Part shown: in pieces, positions 20,636 to 31,624 of the stretch
Numbering within the stretch: the first letter of the stretch is position 1
How the letters are laid out: every line of letters begins with the position of its first letter
From: Stutzerimonas stutzeri
GTDB lineage: Bacteria; Pseudomonadota; Gammaproteobacteria; Pseudomonadales; Pseudomonadaceae
DNA: 64,000 nucleotides
Reading direction: 5' to 3'
Assembly: GCF_018138085.1 (NCBI RefSeq)
Contig: NZ_CP073105.1
Span: 2,480,001 to 2,544,000 of the forward strand
Translations under genes and position numbers: made by a program
Notes under the pieces: model-generated
The model's database searches: none
Told to the model about the DNA's origin: nothing
Seen by the model: only the letters and a program-made list of their open reading frames with translations

Positions 20636-21790
20636 TTATACCTTGAGGATCAGTTTCGAAGCCTTCTCGTTGCGGAAGGTCAGTTCTTCCAGTCCGCGGG
20701 GAGCCTGCTCGGCCTCGGTACGTGCCGCGAGAATCTTGCCGTGATGAGCCGACTTGCTGCACACCGGATCCGCGTTGGCTGCGTCGCCGGTGAGCATGAA
20801 GGCCTGACAGCGGCAGCCTCCGAAATCCTTTTCTTTCTCGTCACACGACTGGCATGGCTCGGGCATCCAGTCGAAACCACGGAACTTGTTGAAGCCCATC
20901 GAGTGCTTCCAAATCTGTTCGATGCTCTGCTCGCGTACGTTCGGAAAGCTGATCGGCAATTGGCGGGCACTGTGGCAAGGCAGCGCGGTACCGTCCGGCG
21001 TGATGTCGAGGAACAGGTTGCCCCAGCCGTTCATGCAGCCCTTGGGGCGTTCTTCGTAGTAATCGGGCGTCACGAAGATCAGTTTGCACGGGTGGTTCTC
21101 GGCGGCGAGCTTGTCACGCCACTCGTTGGTAATCCGCTCGGCCCGCACCAGCTGCGCCTTGCTCGGCAGTAGTCCGGCGCGATTGAGCTCGGCCCAGCCG
21201 TAGAACTGGCAGGTGGCAAGCTCGACGAAGTCAGCCTCCAGCTCCAGGCAGAGCTGGATGATGCGATCGATGTTGTCGATGTTGTGCCGGTGGGTGACGA
21301 AGTTCAGCACCATCGGATAGCCATGCGCCTTGACCGCCCGCGCCATTGCGAGCTTTTGGGCGAACGCCTTCTTCGAGCCGGCCAGCAGGTTGTTCACTTC
21401 CTCGTCGGCGGCCTGGAAACTGATCTGGATATGGTCGAGCCCGGCCTCGGCGAACGAGGCGATCTTCTCCTCGGTTAGGCCGATGCCGGAGGTGATCAGG
21501 TTGGTGTAGTAACCGAGGTCGCGCGCCGCCTTGATCAGCTCGGCCAGGTCCTGGCGGACCAGGGGCTCACCGCCGGAAAACCCCAGCTGCGCCGCCCCCA
21601 GCTCCCGCGCCTGGCGGAACACCTCGATCCACTGCGCGGTGGTCAGTTCGTCCTGGTTGCGGGCGAAGTCCAGCGGGTTCGAGCAATACGGACATTGCAA
21701 CGGACAGCGATAGGTGAGCTCGGCCAGCAGCCACAAGGGTGGGCCAGGCTCGAAACCCGGTTTAGCGAAGCTCGATCCAGAACCGTTCAA
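20636..21790 (-). CDS. pqqE: PqqE, radical SAM enzyme of PQQ synthesis
   Basis: PqqE is a radical SAM/SPASM enzyme that joins the Glu and Tyr side chains of PqqA, the first committed step of PQQ synthesis. The 384-residue protein has the cluster motif [10 protein letters not shown] (about residues 30-39), [13 protein letters not shown] for SAM binding, and the SPASM cysteines [37 protein letters not shown]. It overlaps pqqD by 29 bp, consistent with the PqqD-PqqE-PqqA ternary complex. Confidence 0.98.
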
Positions 21791-22147: not shown

Positions 22148-22900
22148 TCAGACGGTGATGCCCTTATGCCAGACGCGCTCGCTCGTTACTGTGTGATACG
22201 GCGGGCGGTCCAGCTCGTAGGCCATGCTCATGGCATCGAGCATGCTCCACAAGACGTCGAGTTTGAACTGAAGAATGTTCAGCATGCGCTCCTGGCTTTC
22301 GCGGGTCGTGTAGTGCTCCAAGGTGATGCGCAGGCCGTGTTCGACATCGCGGCGCGCTTCTTTCAACCGCTTGCGGAAATAGTCGTAGCCAGACGGATCG
22401 ATCCAGCTGTAATGCTGCGGCCAGGCGTCCAGTCGGGACTGGTGAATGGTCGGCGCGAACAGCTCGGTGAGCGAGCTGCTGGCTGCCTCCTGCCAGACCG
22501 CTCGACGCGCGAAGTTGACGTAGGCATCCACCGCGAAGCGCACACCCGGCAGCACCAGCTCCTGGGACAGCACCTGCTCGCGATCCAGCCCTACCGATTC
22601 AGCCAGGCGCAGCCAGGCCTCGATACCGCCCTCCTCTCCGGGCCTGCCGTCATGGTCGATGATGCGCTGTATCCATTCACGCCGCGTCTCGCGATCCGGA
22701 CAGTTGGCCATGATCGCCGCGTCCTTTACCGGGATGCAGACCTGATAGTAGAAGCGGTTCGCGACCCAGCCCTGAATCTGCGCGCGGGTCGAGCGACCTT
22801 CGTACATGGCCCGATGGAACGGGTGGTGGATATGGTAGTAGTCGCCCTTGGCGCGTAGCGCCGCCTCGAACTCGGCGGGGGTCATGGCTGGCTGAGTCAT
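22148..22900 (-). CDS. pqqC: PqqC, PQQ synthase
   Basis: PqqC is a cofactor-free oxidase with a heme-oxygenase-like helical fold that catalyses the last step, ring closure and eight-electron oxidation to PQQ. The 250-residue length is typical. Recognisable segments are [18 protein letters not shown] (about residues 21-38), [19 protein letters not shown] and [20 protein letters not shown]. It lies 90 bp after pqqB in the pqqABCDEH order. Confidence 0.97.
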
Positions 22901-23949: not shown

Positions 23950-24021
23950 TCAGCGGTTGGCGAAGTACATGGTGACTTCGAAACCAATGCGCAGGTCGGT
24001 GAAAGCAGGTTTGGTCCACAT
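23950..24021 (-). CDS. pqqA: PqqA, PQQ precursor peptide (copy 1)
   Basis: This 23-residue peptide is the ribosomal precursor of PQQ. It reads [23 protein letters not shown], with the Glu and Tyr that become PQQ in the ExxxY spacing (Glu 15, Tyr 19). It is below the usual ORF length cutoff but is flanked correctly by pqqB. GAGGAATCGAACC upstream supplies the ribosome site. A CTACCAAGG motif lies about 105 bp upstream. Confidence 0.97.
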
Positions 24022-24157: not shown

Positions 24158-25276
24158 CTATCGCTGCCGCGTAGCCGGGCGGTCGTTCATGCCCCGCCAG
24201 GCCAGTTCGTTGGTGAGCGTGGCCATGGGCGAGAACATGTCGTAATCGAACGAGGTCATCCTGTCGCCTTGCTCGGCGCGTAGCGGCCAATCGTGATTGG
24301 CCAGCGCGGCCTTGCCCACCGCGACGAGGTCCAGTTCGCCATCGTCCAACAGCTTCTGCGCCTGCTCGCGGGTCTGCACACCACCGTTGCCGATCACTGG
24401 TATCGACACACTGGCCTTGGCAATCGCCGACAGCGTCGGGCCTTCTTCGAACGCTGGCGCACCGACGTCGTATTCGGTGATGTGCAAGTAATCCAGCCCC
24501 GCGTCGGCTAGGGTGGCGAAGCGAACCCTGGCCGCCTCTACCCCGCCGTCCCATTTCAGCCGGCTCGCGGACACCATGCCCTGGGACAGCCGCATCCCGA
24601 CCAGAAATTGCGCACCGACCGCTTCGCGCACGGCCTCGATCACCGCCAACGGCAGCGCCAGCCGAGCCTTGAAATCGCCACCCCATCGATCGGTGCGCTG
24701 GTTGAACTCGGCGCTCATGAACTCGTGCAACAGATAGCCATTGGCGCCGTGCAGCTCGACGCCGTCGAAACCGGCATCACGCGCGTGCCGGGCGGCCTGA
24801 ACGAATCCGGCAATGGCCTGCTGGATTTCTTGCTCGGTCATCTCGGCGGGCGTGGCGTACGGACCTTCGCCACCATAGAAGCTCAGTTGCTCACCACCAG
24901 GCTGCACCGCAGATGGCGCAACGTGGCGGGCATGGTGAACGTTGCCCTGGGTCTGCGCGCCACCGTGCATGAGCTGTGCAACGAAGGCAGCACCCGCCTC
25001 GTGCACGGCCTGGACCAGGGGTTTCCAGCTGTCCCGCTGGACCTCGGTCGCCAGCCCCGGCTGATTGAAGTACCCCTGGCTGTAGGCGGTATCGGTGTAG
25101 GTACCTTCGGTTATCAGCAAGGCGAAACCGCCTTCGGCGAACGCCTGGTAGTAGTCGCGCATCAGCTCGTTGGCCGTCCCGTCCGGCTCGGCGCTGACGC
25201 GCGTCATCGGTGCCAGCACGGTGCGATTGCGCAAGGTCAGTTGCTTGAGCGTGAAGGGTTCGAACAGCTGGGGCAT
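24158..25276 (-). CDS. Old yellow enzyme family NADH:flavin oxidoreductase
   Basis: This is a 372-residue FMN-containing TIM-barrel ene-reductase. It has PFTLKQLTLRNRTVLAPMTR (FMN-binding start), AQLMHGGAQT, the substrate-binding H-x2-N in GFDGVELHGANGYLLHEFMS (His/Asn about 178-181), QRTDRWGGDF, and the phosphate-binding PVIGNGGVQT and LVAVGKAALAN. It reduces activated C=C bonds. It stands between the pqqA promoter and exaC, all on the minus strand; a link to alcohol or aldehyde metabolism is possible but not shown. Confidence 0.93.
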   Translation of the reverse strand: MPQLFEPFTLKQLTLRNRTVLAPMTRVSAEPDGTANELMRDYYQAFAEGGFALLITEGTYTDTAYSQGYFNQPGLATEVQRDSWKPLVQAVHEAGAAFVAQLMHGGAQTQGNVHHARHVAPSAVQPGGEQLSFYGGEGPYATPAEMTEQEIQQAIAGFVQAARHARDAGFDGVELHGANGYLLHEFMSAEFNQRTDRWGGDFKARLALPLAVIEAVREAVGAQFLVGMRLSQGMVSASRLKWDGGVEAARVRFATLADAGLDYLHITEYDVGAPAFEEGPTLSAIAKASVSIPVIGNGGVQTREQAQKLLDDGELDLVAVGKAALANHDWPLRAEQGDRMTSFDYDMFSPMATLTNELAWRGMNDRPATRQR

Positions 25277-27164: not shown

Positions 27165-27468
27165 ATGCCGGGTGGCGTCCAGGCGGCCTGTCGCAGCGGC
27201 GATTAGCCTCGGGAACGGCCTGCGGCGGATCGAGAAATCCGACAGGTTAATCCGCGTCGCCCAGCTGGAAATTGACCATCGGCAAGCCCGATCAGGCGGA
27301 TCGCAAATTCTCTTGCGACGCAACAAAAGCGCGACCAATTACCCATGAAATCGAGCCGAAAGTCCTATTAGGACGCCCCTCCTCGCACCGTAGTTTTCGG
27401 CTGGCGGCACCGTTCCATTTCCCTGATACGGAAAGTCAAAAACGAAAACAACGATGAGGAGATACCCC
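27165..27468. other. Divergent regulatory region between exaC and pqqA2
   Basis: About 300 bp without a gene. It contains the perfect palindrome at 27362 and must carry the promoter of the second pqq operon. Nothing else is recognisable. Confidence 0.5.
27362..27374. promoter_or_regulatory. Palindrome upstream of pqqA2
   Basis: GTCCTA-T-TAGGAC is a perfect 6+1+6 inverted repeat, 95 bp before the pqqA2 start. The spacing resembles that of the CTACTACC motif at the other PQQ genes, but the sequence differs, so a different regulator is possible. Confidence 0.4.
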
Positions 27469-27543
27469 ATGCAATGGATCGATCCTGACTTCTGCGACCT
27501 GCGACTGGGCTTCGAAGTCACCGCGTACGTCTACGTACGCTGA
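27469..27543 (+). CDS. pqqA2: PqqA-like precursor peptide (copy 2)
   Basis: This 24-residue peptide is clearly PqqA-like: MQWIDPDFCDLRLGFEV-TAYVYVR. It shares DLR-x-GFEVT-x-Y with copy 1 and keeps the Glu (16) and Tyr (20) at ExxxY spacing. It differs in having Asp and Cys before the core (DFCD) and a YVYVR tail instead of YFANR. The ribosome site GAGGAG lies 7 bases upstream of ATG. pqqD2 and pqqE2 follow on the same strand. It is too short for ordinary gene callers. Confidence 0.92.
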   Translation: MQWIDPDFCDLRLGFEVTAYVYVR

Positions 27544-27599
27544 GCCCCTGACCGGCGTGGCGGCGCAAGCCGTCACGCTGGCGGTGCGAGGAAATCGAC

Positions 27600-27893
27600 A
27601 TGACCATCCCGAACACTGCGCTTGAGCGCTGCTACGAGATCCGCCCGCCGTTCCTGTTTCGCTGGGAAGACTCGCAGCAGGCCCACGTGCTGCTCTACCC
27701 CGAAGGCATCGTCAAGCTGAACGCCACCGGCGGCGACATCCTCCGGCACTGCGACGGCAAGACCAGCGTGGCCGAGCTGATCGACCGGCTCAGCCACATC
27801 TACAACGCAACCGACCGCGACGCCATAAGCAAGGGCGTCCTGAACTTCCTGGAGGTGTCCCATGGCAAGGGGTGGATCCGAGCTAAGGCTTGA
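27600..27893 (+). CDS. pqqD2: PqqD paralogue (peptide chaperone, copy 2)
   Basis: This is a 97-residue PqqD-like winged-helix protein: [31 protein letters not shown] (split; beta strands that bind the peptide), TGGDILRHCDGKTSVAELIDRL and a C-terminal FLEVSHGKGW helix. It lacks the PAFRRG start of PqqD1 and is clearly diverged. It lies 56 bp after pqqA2 with its own GAGGAAA ribosome site and overlaps pqqE2 by 32 bp, the same arrangement as the first locus. Confidence 0.92.
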   Translation: MTIPNTALERCYEIRPPFLFRWEDSQQAHVLLYPEGIVKLNATGGDILRHCDGKTSVAELIDRLSHIYNATDRDAISKGVLNFLEVSHGKGWIRAKA

Positions 27894-29007
27894 TGGCAGC
27901 GGCAACCCCGTCTGGCTGCTGCTGGAGCTGACCTACCAATGTCCGCTGCAGTGCGCGTTTTGCAGCAACCCGCGCAACTTCGGCGACTACCGCCAAGACG
28001 AGCTCAGCACCGCCGAGTGGATCGACGTGATGGCCCAGGCCCGCGCCATGGGCGCCATGCAGATCGGCTTCTCCGGCGGCGAGCCGACCCTGCGCAAAGA
28101 CCTCGAGACGCTGGTCGCCGAGGCCGATCGCATGGGCTACTACACCAACCTGATCACTTCCGGCATCGGCCTGACCGAAGCTCGGCTGCACGCCCTGAAG
28201 GACGCCGGGTTGCGCCACATCCAGCTCGGTTTCCAGTCCACCGACCGCGACGTGGCGCGCCAGCTGGCCGGGGTCGATGCCTGGGAGCGCAAGCTCGGCA
28301 TGGCACGGCTGATCAAGTCGCTGGACTTTCCCATGGTGCTGAACGTACCGATTACCCGACAGAACATCGGCCAGATCCCGGACATCATCGACTTCGCCAT
28401 CGAGCTAGGCGTGGAATACCTCGAACTGGCCAATGTGCAGTACTACAACTGGGCGCTGCTCAACCGTGATGCGCTGATGCCGACCCGCGCCGATCTGCAG
28501 CGTGCGGAAAGCCAGGTGCAGCAAGCGCGCAAGCGTCACGGCGATCGGCTGACCATTTTCTTCGTCATCCCCGACTATTACGAAGGCCGACCCAAGGCCT
28601 GCATGAACGGCTGGGGCGCCATCCACGTCACCGTCGCGCCCAATGGCGACGTGCTGCCCTGCTCCCAGGCGGCCAACTTCAAGCATCTCCAGTTTCCCAA
28701 CGTGCGCCAGCAGCGTCTGGCGCAGATCTGGCACGATTCGCCGGTGTTCAACCTGTACCGCGGCGATAGCTGGATGCCCGAGCCCTGCCGCAGCTGCGAC
28801 GAGAAGGAAAAGGACTTCGGTGGTTGCCGCTGCCAGGCCCTGCTGCTGACCGGCGACGGCGCCAACACCGATCCGGCGTGCAACCGGTCGCCGCATCACC
28901 AGTTGGTGCGCCAGGCCGTGGCACTGGCCGAAGAGGCCGCCCGCCCGCAGGGCACCCTGATTGCCCGCCAAGCCAGCCAGGGGGTCGAAATTGAAACTGC
29001 CCCATGA
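27862..29007 (+). CDS. pqqE2: PqqE paralogue, radical SAM/SPASM enzyme (copy 2)
   Basis: This is a 381-residue radical SAM enzyme with the complete PqqE motif set: [54 protein letters not shown] and [20 protein letters not shown]. The central region differs strongly from PqqE1 (for example TRQNIGQIPDIIDFAIELGV), so this is a diverged paralogue rather than a recent duplicate. With both the radical SAM and auxiliary cluster cysteines intact it should be active, and the ExxxY peptide next door is its likely substrate. It overlaps pqqD2 and the following small membrane ORF. Confidence 0.94.
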   Translation: MARGGSELRLDGSGNPVWLLLELTYQCPLQCAFCSNPRNFGDYRQDELSTAEWIDVMAQARAMGAMQIGFSGGEPTLRKDLETLVAEADRMGYYTNLITSGIGLTEARLHALKDAGLRHIQLGFQSTDRDVARQLAGVDAWERKLGMARLIKSLDFPMVLNVPITRQNIGQIPDIIDFAIELGVEYLELANVQYYNWALLNRDALMPTRADLQRAESQVQQARKRHGDRLTIFFVIPDYYEGRPKACMNGWGAIHVTVAPNGDVLPCSQAANFKHLQFPNVRQQRLAQIWHDSPVFNLYRGDSWMPEPCRSCDEKEKDFGGCRCQALLLTGDGANTDPACNRSPHHQLVRQAVALAEEAARPQGTLIARQASQGVEIETAP

Positions 29008-29083
29008 TTCATTCGCCGGCACTCTCGGCGCCGGCCTCGTATTGACGCTCGGCTGCTACCTGCTGCTGCGCGTGCTGGTCTAG
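28991..29083 (+). CDS. 30-residue single-span membrane peptide (TTG start)
   Basis: This unannotated frame lies between pqqE2 and the PuuD-like gene. It starts at TTG 28991 with AGGGGG six bases upstream, overlaps the pqqE2 end by 17 bp and ends at TAG 29083, whose bases form part of the AGGAGG ribosome site of the next gene. It encodes one hydrophobic helix, GTLGAGLVLTLGCYLLLRVL, after a short polar start (KLPHDSFA). Small subunits of this shape accompany membrane cytochromes (CcoQ/CydX-like). The tight packing supports translation; the function is unknown. Confidence 0.6.
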   Translation: MKLPHDSFAGTLGAGLVLTLGCYLLLRVLV

Positions 29084-29091
29084 GAGGCGTG

Positions 29092-29595
29092 ATGCAGTCG
29101 CCCATCCTCGACGTGCTGGCCCGCTACGCGCATTTGCTATTCGCGCTGGTCTGGGTTGGCCACAACTACGCCAACTTCATCCAGAATCCGCGCTTCGTGC
29201 CGCTGCACAACGGCATCGACACTGCCACGCTGAATCGCGACCTGGAAGCGCGGATGAAGCGCGAGCACGGCATCTTCCGTTACGCCTCATTAGTGGTCTG
29301 GCTGTCCGGGATGGCCATGCTCTGGCATCGCGGTTGGCTGCCCGACGCCCTGTTGCTCAAAGGTCCGCTGGCGGTCATCGGCCTCGGCGCCTGGATCGGC
29401 ACGGCAATGCTGCTCAACCTCTGGCTCGTGCTCTGGCCACACCAGAAGAAGTTGCTCGGCTTCGTCCCGGCGACGCTGGAGGAGCGCGTGCGCTGCTCGC
29501 GTATCACCTTCCTGTCGTCGCGCAGCAATACCATCCTGTCGATTCCCCTGCTGTTCCTGATGGCGACTGGCGGCCATGGCTTGCACCTCTACTGA
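29092..29595 (+). CDS. PuuD-like integral membrane protein (urate oxidase N-terminal family)
   Basis: This is a 167-residue membrane protein with four hydrophobic helices. Segments ARYAHLLFALVWVGHNYANF near the N-terminus and LNLWLVLWPHQKKLLGF resemble the membrane part of PuuD-type urate hydroxylases, where histidines on the helices may hold heme. Several His are present (His 14, 24, 39, 60, 74, 119, 161, 165). ATG 29092 has AGGAGG four bases upstream. It overlaps the serC-like gene by 20 bp. In this operon it could pass electrons between the product pathway and the respiratory chain (inference). Confidence 0.75.
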   Translation: MQSPILDVLARYAHLLFALVWVGHNYANFIQNPRFVPLHNGIDTATLNRDLEARMKREHGIFRYASLVVWLSGMAMLWHRGWLPDALLLKGPLAVIGLGAWIGTAMLLNLWLVLWPHQKKLLGFVPATLEERVRCSRITFLSSRSNTILSIPLLFLMATGGHGLHLY

Positions 29596-30676
29596 ACCGT
29601 CCGCTCGCTACAACTTCGCCGCCGGTCCGGCGATGCTGCCGGTCGAGGTGCTGACGCAGATCGCCGAGGAGTTGCCGAACTGGCAGGCGAGCGGCTTTTC
29701 GGTGCTCGAGCAACCGTTCACCGATGCGCCGTTCAAGCACTTGATGAGCGATACCGAACAGTTGCTGCGCAGGCTCCTGGCGATTCCGCACGGCTACCGC
29801 GTGCTGTTCCTGCAGGGTGGCGCATCGGCGCAGTTCGGGCTGTTACCGCTGAACCTGCTTCGCCCCGGACAAAGCGCCGACTACCTCGAAAGCGGCCACT
29901 GGGCACGCAAGGCGATCGCCGAGGCGCGTCGGCACGCACCGGTCAGGGTTGTCGCCAGCGGTGCCGCACGAGGCTTCAGCGCCCTGCCCTCGTTCGAACA
30001 CTGGCGGCTCGATCCCGATGCCGGCTATTGCCACCTCACCAGCAACGAAACCAGCAACGGCCTGCAGATGCAGCATTTCCCAGAGTCGCCCGTGCCGCTG
30101 GTTGCCGACATGACCTCCGACCTGCTGACGCGCCCCTTGCCGGTCGGGCGCTTCGGGCTGATCTATGCCAGCGCACAGAAAAACCTCGGCGTCGCCGGCC
30201 TCTGCCTGCTGATCGTGCGCGATGACGTGCTACGCAAGCCGCCGCGCGGGCTGCCCGCCGCGTTCAGCTATGCCGTCCAGGCCGAGCAGCAGAGCCGCTT
30301 CAACACACCGCCAACCTTTGCCCTGTATGTCGCCAACCTGATGCTGCGCTGGATCGAGCGCCAGGGTGGCCTCGAGGTGATGGCCGCCAACGCCCGCGAG
30401 CGCAGCCAGCGGCTTTATCGCCATATCGACGCCAGCGGCTTCTACCATTGCCCGCAGCGCGTGGCAGACCGCTCCACCATCAACGTCTGCTTCCAGTTAC
30501 GCGATCCGCAGCGGGTCGCGGCGTTCGTTGCCGAGGCGGCACATCAGGGGCTGCATCACCTGGCCGGCCACGCGGCGGTCGGCGGCCTGCGGGCGAGCTT
30601 GTACAACGCCATGCCGCTGGAGGGCGTCGAGCGGTTGCTGGCGTTCATGCAACGGTTCGAGTGCCGCCATGGCTGA
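29576..30676 (+). CDS. SerC-like PLP aminotransferase with altered substrate pocket
   Basis: This is a 366-residue class V aminotransferase clearly derived from phosphoserine aminotransferase: YNFAAGPAMLPVEVL at the start, W109 in SGHWARKAI, the PLP lysine in YASAQKNLG (Lys 202), NTPPTFALY and LRASLYNAMPLEGVE at the end. However, the substrate phosphate contacts of SerC are changed: the SHR of E. coli SerC (His41-Arg42) corresponds to PFT here (Phe48-Thr49), and GHR near the C-terminus is GHA. PLP binding is kept. It is therefore unlikely to act on phosphohydroxypyruvate and probably serves the pqq-like operon. It overlaps both neighbours. Confidence 0.85.
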   Translation: MACTSTEPSARYNFAAGPAMLPVEVLTQIAEELPNWQASGFSVLEQPFTDAPFKHLMSDTEQLLRRLLAIPHGYRVLFLQGGASAQFGLLPLNLLRPGQSADYLESGHWARKAIAEARRHAPVRVVASGAARGFSALPSFEHWRLDPDAGYCHLTSNETSNGLQMQHFPESPVPLVADMTSDLLTRPLPVGRFGLIYASAQKNLGVAGLCLLIVRDDVLRKPPRGLPAAFSYAVQAEQQSRFNTPPTFALYVANLMLRWIERQGGLEVMAANARERSQRLYRHIDASGFYHCPQRVADRSTINVCFQLRDPQRVAAFVAEAAHQGLHHLAGHAAVGGLRASLYNAMPLEGVERLLAFMQRFECRHG

Positions 30677-31535
30677 GGGGGTTTTGCCAGCACAGCGCAC
30701 GCGTCTGCGCCACCGCTTCGCACTGGACCTGGCGAGCCTGGCGTGCCGCCTCCCCGCGCAGCCAATCGCTCAACCGGTCGAGGCGATGGGCCTGCAGTTC
30801 CAGACCCCGGTGGGTATCGCGGCCGGCTTCGATCGACTCGGACGGCTCGGGCGCCGGGCTTCGACGCTGGGCTTCGGTTTTACCGAGATCGGCAGCCTGA
30901 CCGCCGCCGACCTGCCCCTTCTGGCAGCTCCCCGGCTAGGCGCGGCACAACTGGGCGTCAACCTGACGCTCGACGCGGGTCATGCGATCGCCCAGACCTG
31001 CGCGCTGCTCCAGGGCGCCTGGCCTTGGGCCGACTATCTGTTGCTCAACCTCATCGGGCCAGCCTGTGCGCCTTTGCTGGAGCAGCCCGGGCGTCTCCAA
31101 GCGCGGCTCGCCTCACTGCGTGACCATCACCGACATCTCAACTGCGCCTATGGTCGGCAGGTCCCGCTGGTGGCCAAGCTACGCTGCCTGCCCGACAACC
31201 TGCCGCTGGCCCTGGTCGACCGGCTTCTGGGGCTGGGCTTCGATGGTCTGCTGCTGGCCCATGACCCCGGACCGCCAGCTACACGCCAACGCTACCTGGC
31301 CTGGCAGGATGAGCGTGTCCAGGCGCAGGCGTGCGCGCAGGTCGCGCAGCTGCACCGTCTCTGCGGACCGAACGCTGTATTGATGTCGGTGGGTGGCATC
31401 CAGACGGCCGATCACCTGCGTGAGCGTAGGGCGGCCGGCGCGCAGCTGGTCCAGGTGCATGCGGCCCTGCTGCAGCAAGGACCCTGGCTGGCGCGCCGCC
31501 TGCTGGGGGCGGGAACCGAAGGTCCGGTTCGGTAG
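30669..31535 (+). CDS. PyrD-like flavoprotein with degenerate active site
   Basis: This 288-residue TIM-barrel protein resembles class 2 dihydroorotate dehydrogenase: TPVGIAAGFDRLGRLGRRAS, LGFGFTEIGSLT, the FMN-phosphate half with SVGGIQTADHLRERRAAGA and LVQVHAALLQQGPWLARRL. The catalytic NxSSPNTPG segment of PyrD is replaced by NLIGPACAP, and the TNTT orotate-binding segment by AHDP, so it should not oxidise dihydroorotate. Lys 170 (VAKLR) of the barrel is kept. ATG 30669 overlaps the serC-like stop by 8 bp. It is the last gene of the second pqq operon; a terminator follows. Confidence 0.8.
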   Translation: MAEGVLPAQRTRLRHRFALDLASLACRLPAQPIAQPVEAMGLQFQTPVGIAAGFDRLGRLGRRASTLGFGFTEIGSLTAADLPLLAAPRLGAAQLGVNLTLDAGHAIAQTCALLQGAWPWADYLLLNLIGPACAPLLEQPGRLQARLASLRDHHRHLNCAYGRQVPLVAKLRCLPDNLPLALVDRLLGLGFDGLLLAHDPGPPATRQRYLAWQDERVQAQACAQVAQLHRLCGPNAVLMSVGGIQTADHLRERRAAGAQLVQVHAALLQQGPWLARRLLGAGTEGPVR

Positions 31536-31593: not shown

Positions 31594-31624
31594 AAAAGGG
31601 CCGGCTAAGAGCCGGCCCTTTGTC
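31594..31624. terminator. Bidirectional terminator between pqq-like operon and pedH
   Basis: AAAAGGGCCGGCT-AAGA-GCCGGCCCTTT has A and T runs on both sides and lies between two converging genes (pyrD-like and pedH). Confidence 0.88.

Follow-up and report, generated by a model that had tools for sequence, protein, structure and literature searches.

Why would a bacterium with a canonical set of genes for pyrroloquinoline quinone (PQQ) carry a second pqq-like operon whose late genes are of a different kind? The question is raised by a 64,000-nucleotide (nt) stretch of Stutzerimonas stutzeri DNA (contig NZ_CP073105.1, positions 2,480,001 to 2,544,000), hereafter the window. Seven open reading frames (ORFs), all on the + strand, occupy positions 27469..31535, where a preliminary description had placed them, and encode PqqA-, PqqD- and PqqE-like proteins (PqqA2, PqqD2, PqqE2), a short transmembrane (TM) peptide, a PuuD-like membrane protein, a SerC-like aminotransferase (SerC2) and a PyrD-like flavoprotein (PyrD2) (Table 1). 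Sequence comparison suggests that this is probably an anaerobically expressed second PQQ operon, for PQQ or a close analogue, in which other enzymes would replace the O2-dependent PqqB and PqqC. As a kind, the cluster is already in print, while its function has the standing of a candidate.

The ORFs and their family matches bear out a second pqq-like operon with a PqqA/D/E core and no second pqqB or pqqC, neither of which lies within the seven genes. The tight packing is also confirmed, as successive genes are spaced by 56, -32, -17, 8, -20 and -8 nt (negative values being overlaps). PqqA2 scores 40.1 bits with PF08042 and 32.1 with TIGR02107 (cut-off 20). The segment DLRLGFEVTAYVYVR is the same in all 57 pqqA2 rows chosen by the VTAYVYVR pattern (some genomes having been fetched twice), and the C-terminal end is an invariant YVYVR, in contrast to the MYFANR of canonical PqqA. 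PqqD2 passes TIGR03859 and misses the other PqqD model, NF002535 (84.7 against 101 bits), whereas PqqE2 stands well above the TIGR02109 cut-off of 381 bits. In the alignment, the CxxxCxxC and SPASM cysteines of PqqE2 are common to the canonical PqqE1, with which it shares ~51% identity. A tree split 13 PqqE2 from 15 PqqE1 sequences by a 100/100 branch, many of them coming from the same genomes. PqqE2 thus forms its own clade and is therefore no recent duplicate, so a recent duplication of the canonical operon was ruled out.

Among 37 genomes of the window's genus (G000-G036, the window's own being G000), 22 hold PyrD2 at length, the copy of G006 being in two pieces; 13 have none at the threshold used, one of these being 71% complete. 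Of the 21 genus loci fetched, 20 gave the full set of seven; pqqA2 is missing in G005, and G021 (D2/E2) and G006 (PyrD2) have damaged genes. Operon remnants were seen beside exaC in G010 (locus L052) and G028 (L053), between ExaC and the next gene, which points to independent losses. A wider scan returned loci L054-L084, comprising Stutzerimonas species and nine Pseudomonas-titled loci from outside the genus set, with which many of the other genomes are shared; the full seven genes are present in 30/31, and L070 (TS44, the genome of G005) lacks pqqA2. Of the 16 weaker matches of that scan (L085-L100), 13 were checked (L085-L097) and PyrD alone matched. Three further operons in other families were found through a PuuD profile (G190, G398 and G177), two in a Marinobacter-like family (PuuD sharing 92% identity with a protein of Marinobacter) and one more in G1134. 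The order A2-D2-E2-TM-PuuD-SerC-PyrD is identical in these six, with PyrD2 only ~30-36% identical to that of the window. The order is kept in at least five lineages; beside Stutzerimonas, the Pseudomonas-titled loci and the Marinobacter-like pair, two more families of gammaproteobacteria show it. The preliminary description would have been undermined by downstream genes not conserved with pqqA2DE; they co-travel with it in every lineage found, and the late genes never stand apart from pqqA2DE in these loci.

The operon is rare. A close PuuD occurs in 5/369 genomes of the class and 4/390 of the order, the window's genome counted. A pqqA2 codon pattern matched only G000 and G002 among 398 genomes of the phylum, and a PyrD2 profile at 1e-35 again found only these two in the 369 class genomes, missing the three divergent operons detected through PuuD; the order of G190 is represented by only 4 genomes. 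Compared with ten other loci, dN/dS (nonsynonymous to synonymous substitution rate) is at most 0.5 for each of the seven genes, a rough value with synonymous sites far diverged; it is 0.07-0.13 for the PuuD-like gene and 0.11-0.32 for the TM peptide. Because of these ratios and the gene order kept in other families, the operon is more than a chance assembly.

The earlier proposal that the SerC- and PyrD-like enzymes lack their usual substrate residues held up. SerC2, a member of the Aminotran_5 family, passes the SerC equivalog NF003764 (443 against 253 bits) and fails TIGR01364 (406 against 443.6). The lysine that binds pyridoxal phosphate (PLP; QK motif) is kept in 15/15 sequences, and the carboxylate-side Arg is retained. 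The phosphate site of SerC is formed by a His-Arg pair and the Arg of GHR. When aligned with P. aeruginosa-type SerC 4xk1, the former is replaced by Pro-Phe in 14/15 sequences and by Ser-Phe in one, and the latter (GH-x-x-x-GG here) is absent from all 15. The window's genome encodes a separate housekeeping SerC (G000:C1:2069434-2070507). A second, higher-scoring SerC was likewise found in 8/8 operon-bearing Stutzerimonas and Marinobacter-like genomes tested, against one SerC in 8/8 operon-free genomes, and the operon SerC and PyrD were therefore rejected as housekeeping enzymes. In G177, G190, G398 and G1134 the operon SerC is the only match to the SerC family searched; operon-free G302 has no match to that family.

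PyrD2 falls under every PyrD equivalog cut-off listed (best 93.9 against 457 bits). SSPN is an active-site motif of dihydroorotate dehydrogenase (DHOD); here NISSPN has become NLIGPA and SSPN is lost. PyrD2 evolves fast, and its AHDPGPPATR motif is present in Stutzerimonas and Pseudomonas and absent in G190, G398 and G177. In one protein of 485 residues (P0106), SerC2 and PyrD2 are naturally fused and both Pfam domains are present; the fusion may have arisen by deletion.

The PuuD-like protein (167 residues) aligns only to positions 172-237 of the 295 of PF06181 (Urate_ox_N) and gave no cytochrome c match; unlike urate oxidase PuuD, it has neither the full membrane domain nor the cytochrome c. 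His14, His24, His59, His117 and His162 are invariant in seven aligned sequences from four lineages, and heme binding is our guess. It has no relative in the PDB by sequence. The TM peptide was found in 21/21 genus loci, in 31/31 of L054-L084, and in L133-L135, L146-L147 and L222. A TM-peptide match also lies 5' of the PuuD-like gene in 6/7 pqq-free loci examined (L136-L141), and in the two such loci annotated (L136 and L142, both gammaproteobacterial) the PuuD-like genes adjoin argD-argF.

The preliminary description did not touch on the anaerobic context. Outside the window's genus, anaerobic control is suggested by the promoters. Across 69 loci (993,772 nt) there are 13 perfect Anr/FNR boxes (consensus TTGATN4ATCAA), and 12 of these lie 150-230 nt 5' of pqqA2; one further perfect box was found in L222. 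The survey was counted by row, with 57 pqqA2 rows (15 outside the window's genus and 42 inside it, genomes fetched twice included). Outside the genus, 13/15 rows have a perfect box and 1/15 a box with one mismatch, and in the nine Pseudomonas loci the perfect box sits at -173 to -178. By comparison, 0/38 canonical pqqA loci show a box with two or fewer mismatches, 37/38 of this control coming from the window's genus. The degenerate box of the window (Table 1) is at about the same place as the perfect boxes of the nine Pseudomonas loci. A palindromic AAAGTCCTATTAG box was also seen 5' of the window's pqqA2 (27359-27371); a similar AAAGTCnTATTAG stands 5' of pqqA2 in many aligned loci and may be a promoter element or the site of a regulator.

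Some of the divergent operons have anaerobic neighbours, as seen by hidden Markov model (HMM) annotation, which left out G177. The Marinobacter-like neighbourhood holds narK, narX, narL and selD, with narG ~5 kb off; that of G190 holds nrdD-nrdG2 plus an aerobic cytochrome c oxidase gene; and that of G398 holds a molybdoenzyme of the formate dehydrogenase/DMSO reductase type. Within the genus, narG is present in 17/22 operon-bearing genomes against 1/14 of the others tested (G004 left out), and Fisher's test gave p 8e-5 on 35 rows (17/22 against 1/13). The nirS-type cytochrome d1 is present in 22/22 against 10/14, G024 having a fragment only. The window's genome has cytochrome d1 genes and no narG; nap and other genes were not searched. 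These distributions are no more than suggestive.

The preliminary description had left two outcomes for the cross-linked peptide, a product other than PQQ or PQQ by another route, and the second is the best explanation. We propose that PqqE2 and PqqD2 cross-link Glu and Tyr within PqqA2, and that a peptidase encoded elsewhere would release the linked pair. Ring closure, hydroxylation with oxygen taken from water, and oxidation would then fall to SerC2, PyrD2 and the PuuD-like protein with its small TM partner, and the respiratory chain rather than O2 would receive the electrons. What results, either PQQ or an analogue very close to it, would serve PedE/PedH-type dehydrogenases in nitrate respiration. 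The step order, the late reaction of each enzyme and the identity of the product are a proposal only. The logic of the scheme would resemble that of HemF/HemN and similar pairs, where a cofactor step has two routes and the O2-free one is induced by Anr/FNR; the difference is that here several genes would make up the replacement, again as a proposal.

Several observations weigh against an O2-free PQQ route. A transaminase is expected to take away a nitrogen, and PQQ keeps both; the enzyme thus suits PQQ synthesis poorly. PuuD-like proteins are common without pqq genes, 101/369 class genomes holding one. Canonical PqqC is kept in 7/7 operon-bearing genomes tested, which in itself speaks for the proposal if the anaerobic route is an addition; on the other side, the operon was found without PqqC in 0/7, and the set was not seen sufficing alone. 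The tree-corrected narG test yielded 5 independent pairs, of which 3 agree and ~0 oppose, with a median p of 0.25. The window's genome is one of five operon-bearing genomes without narG, and neither narG nor cytochrome d1 was found in G190. The best box of G190 (L133) has two mismatches, the window's genus has 0/42 rows with a perfect box (two to four mismatches, some genomes fetched twice), and the box of the window itself falls short of significance when taken alone, 24/300 shuffles of the same 300 nt scoring equally high.

Another cofactor, or a chelator, may instead be the product of the operon. SerC2 would then transaminate the cross-linked Glu-Tyr to an alpha-keto acid and PyrD2 and the PuuD-like protein would oxidise it, giving a PQQ relative minus one nitrogen that is used beside PQQ. 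The retained carboxylate-side Arg of this PLP aminotransferase fits such a reaction, as do the full canonical route retained in every operon-bearing genome tested, the YVYVR end of PqqA2 and, in part of the loci, a location apart from PQQ dehydrogenases. However, the PqqE cysteines are kept in PqqE2, the operon lies inside the ped cluster in Stutzerimonas, and no dedicated client enzyme is common to the neighbourhoods looked at. We consider this reading rather unlikely and would put forward a new cofactor or chelator derived from a ribosomally synthesized and post-translationally modified peptide (RiPP), redox-active in the former case and under anaerobic control beside PQQ in denitrifying bacteria, only tentatively.

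That pqqA2DE merely boosts the cross-linked precursor for canonical PqqB and PqqC, the other four genes being unrelated, is improbable. Canonical pqqE is indeed present in 22/22 operon-bearing genus genomes, and a 2026 ped review, where it deals with secondary pqq operons, describes them as auxiliary and often incomplete (PMC12997753). Yet the late genes do not part from pqqA2DE, the PqqE2 clade is old and separate, and anaerobic-type promoters would switch the operon on when PqqC cannot work. Still less can be said for a decaying relic without present use, which we regard as very unlikely: remnants in G010 and G028, damage in G006 and G021, the missing pqqA2 of G005 and the fast evolution of pyrD2 are set against an intact window copy of all seven genes and low dN/dS for every one of them.

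The claim that the gene set was undescribed did not survive. In the part that deals with these clusters, Li et al. 2025 report pqqAED-puuD-serC-pyrD clusters beside a canonical pqq operon in denitrifiers, namely Hyphomicrobium denitrificans, Halomonas sulfidovorans, S. stutzeri, Methylophaga nitratireducenticrescens and Azoarcus (PMC12423496). From that distribution they put forward O2-independent PQQ synthesis as speculation, adding that P. aeruginosa and K. pneumoniae have the canonical set only and make no PQQ anaerobically, and that the H. denitrificans gene set is under sHdrR/SoxR influence (PMC12423496). The genes, the coexisting canonical operon and the functional proposal are the same as here; to their section 2.9 we add the TM peptide of 30 residues, the Anr/FNR boxes, the loss of substrate-site residues and the separate clade of PqqE2. 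The 2026 ped review, in its account of PQQ synthesis, states that O2 is required (PMC12997753). Our literature search found no test of the O2-free idea, most subscription journals and all preprints being outside its coverage.

Among known systems, the canonical pqqABCDE operon shares the PqqA, PqqD and PqqE parts, but has PqqB and PqqC where SerC-, PyrD- and PuuD-like enzymes stand here. Mycofactocin is alike in its short precursor, PqqD-like partner, radical S-adenosylmethionine (SAM) enzyme and later flavoprotein step. However, PqqE2, at 99.7 bits, stays below the 265-bit cut-off of the maturase MftC, and neither a glycosyltransferase gene nor one of MftE type belongs to the operon.

In the window, the operon is flanked by an ExaC-type aldehyde dehydrogenase on one side and a PedH-type quinoprotein on the other, with the canonical pqq genes upstream on the opposite strand. 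The adjoining PedH has GWDFDG, whose Asp-x-Asp we take to be the lanthanide-type signature. The general link with PedH suggested by this position did not extend to other loci, as PedH adjoins the operon in only part of them. A gene of the old-yellow-enzyme family (24158-25276) separates pqqA1 from exaC in the window and in part of the Stutzerimonas loci. The terminator scan gave 3 sites where shuffled sequence would give 2.8; the terminator after pyrD2 is plausible because of the stem itself, not because of the site count.

Table 1. Coordinates in the window of the operon, its promoter box and terminator-like stem, and the canonical pqq genes.
Feature	Position	Strand	Description	Match or basis
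Degenerate Anr/FNR-like box	27272..27285	+	TTGACCATCGGCAA; 197 nt before pqqA2 start, 3 mismatches	
pqqA2	27469..27543	+	24-residue precursor MQWIDPDFCDLRLGFEVTAYVYVR, E-x3-Y	PF08042, TIGR02107
pqqD2	27600..27893	+	peptide chaperone	TIGR03859, 81.3 bits (cut-off 46)
pqqE2	27862..29007	+	radical SAM/SPASM PqqE	TIGR02109, 509 bits
TM peptide	28991..29083	+	30 residues, TTG start, overlaps pqqE2 end	
PuuD-like membrane protein	29092..29595	+	urate oxidase N-terminal region, without cytochrome c part	PF06181
SerC-like PLP aminotransferase	29576..30676	+	phosphate-site residues gone	
PyrD-like flavoprotein	30669..31535	+	class-2 DHOD relative, altered active site	PF01180 (DHO_dh), 53.2 bits
Terminator-like stem	31595..31621		between pyrD2 and pedH; 12 pairs, 8 G-C	scan called terminator on - strand
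PqqE1	20669-21745	opposite to operon		HMM
PqqC	22178-22885	opposite to operon		HMM
pqqA1	23950-24021	opposite to operon		ORF and sequence

In denitrifying methylotrophs and alcohol oxidisers, PQQ enzymes have to work where O2 is absent, a problem that a dedicated O2-free route, if true, would solve. It would mean late-stage PQQ chemistry with respiratory electron acceptors in place of O2, and anaerobic PQQ production would become possible. If the product is not PQQ, the operon would instead make a new cofactor.

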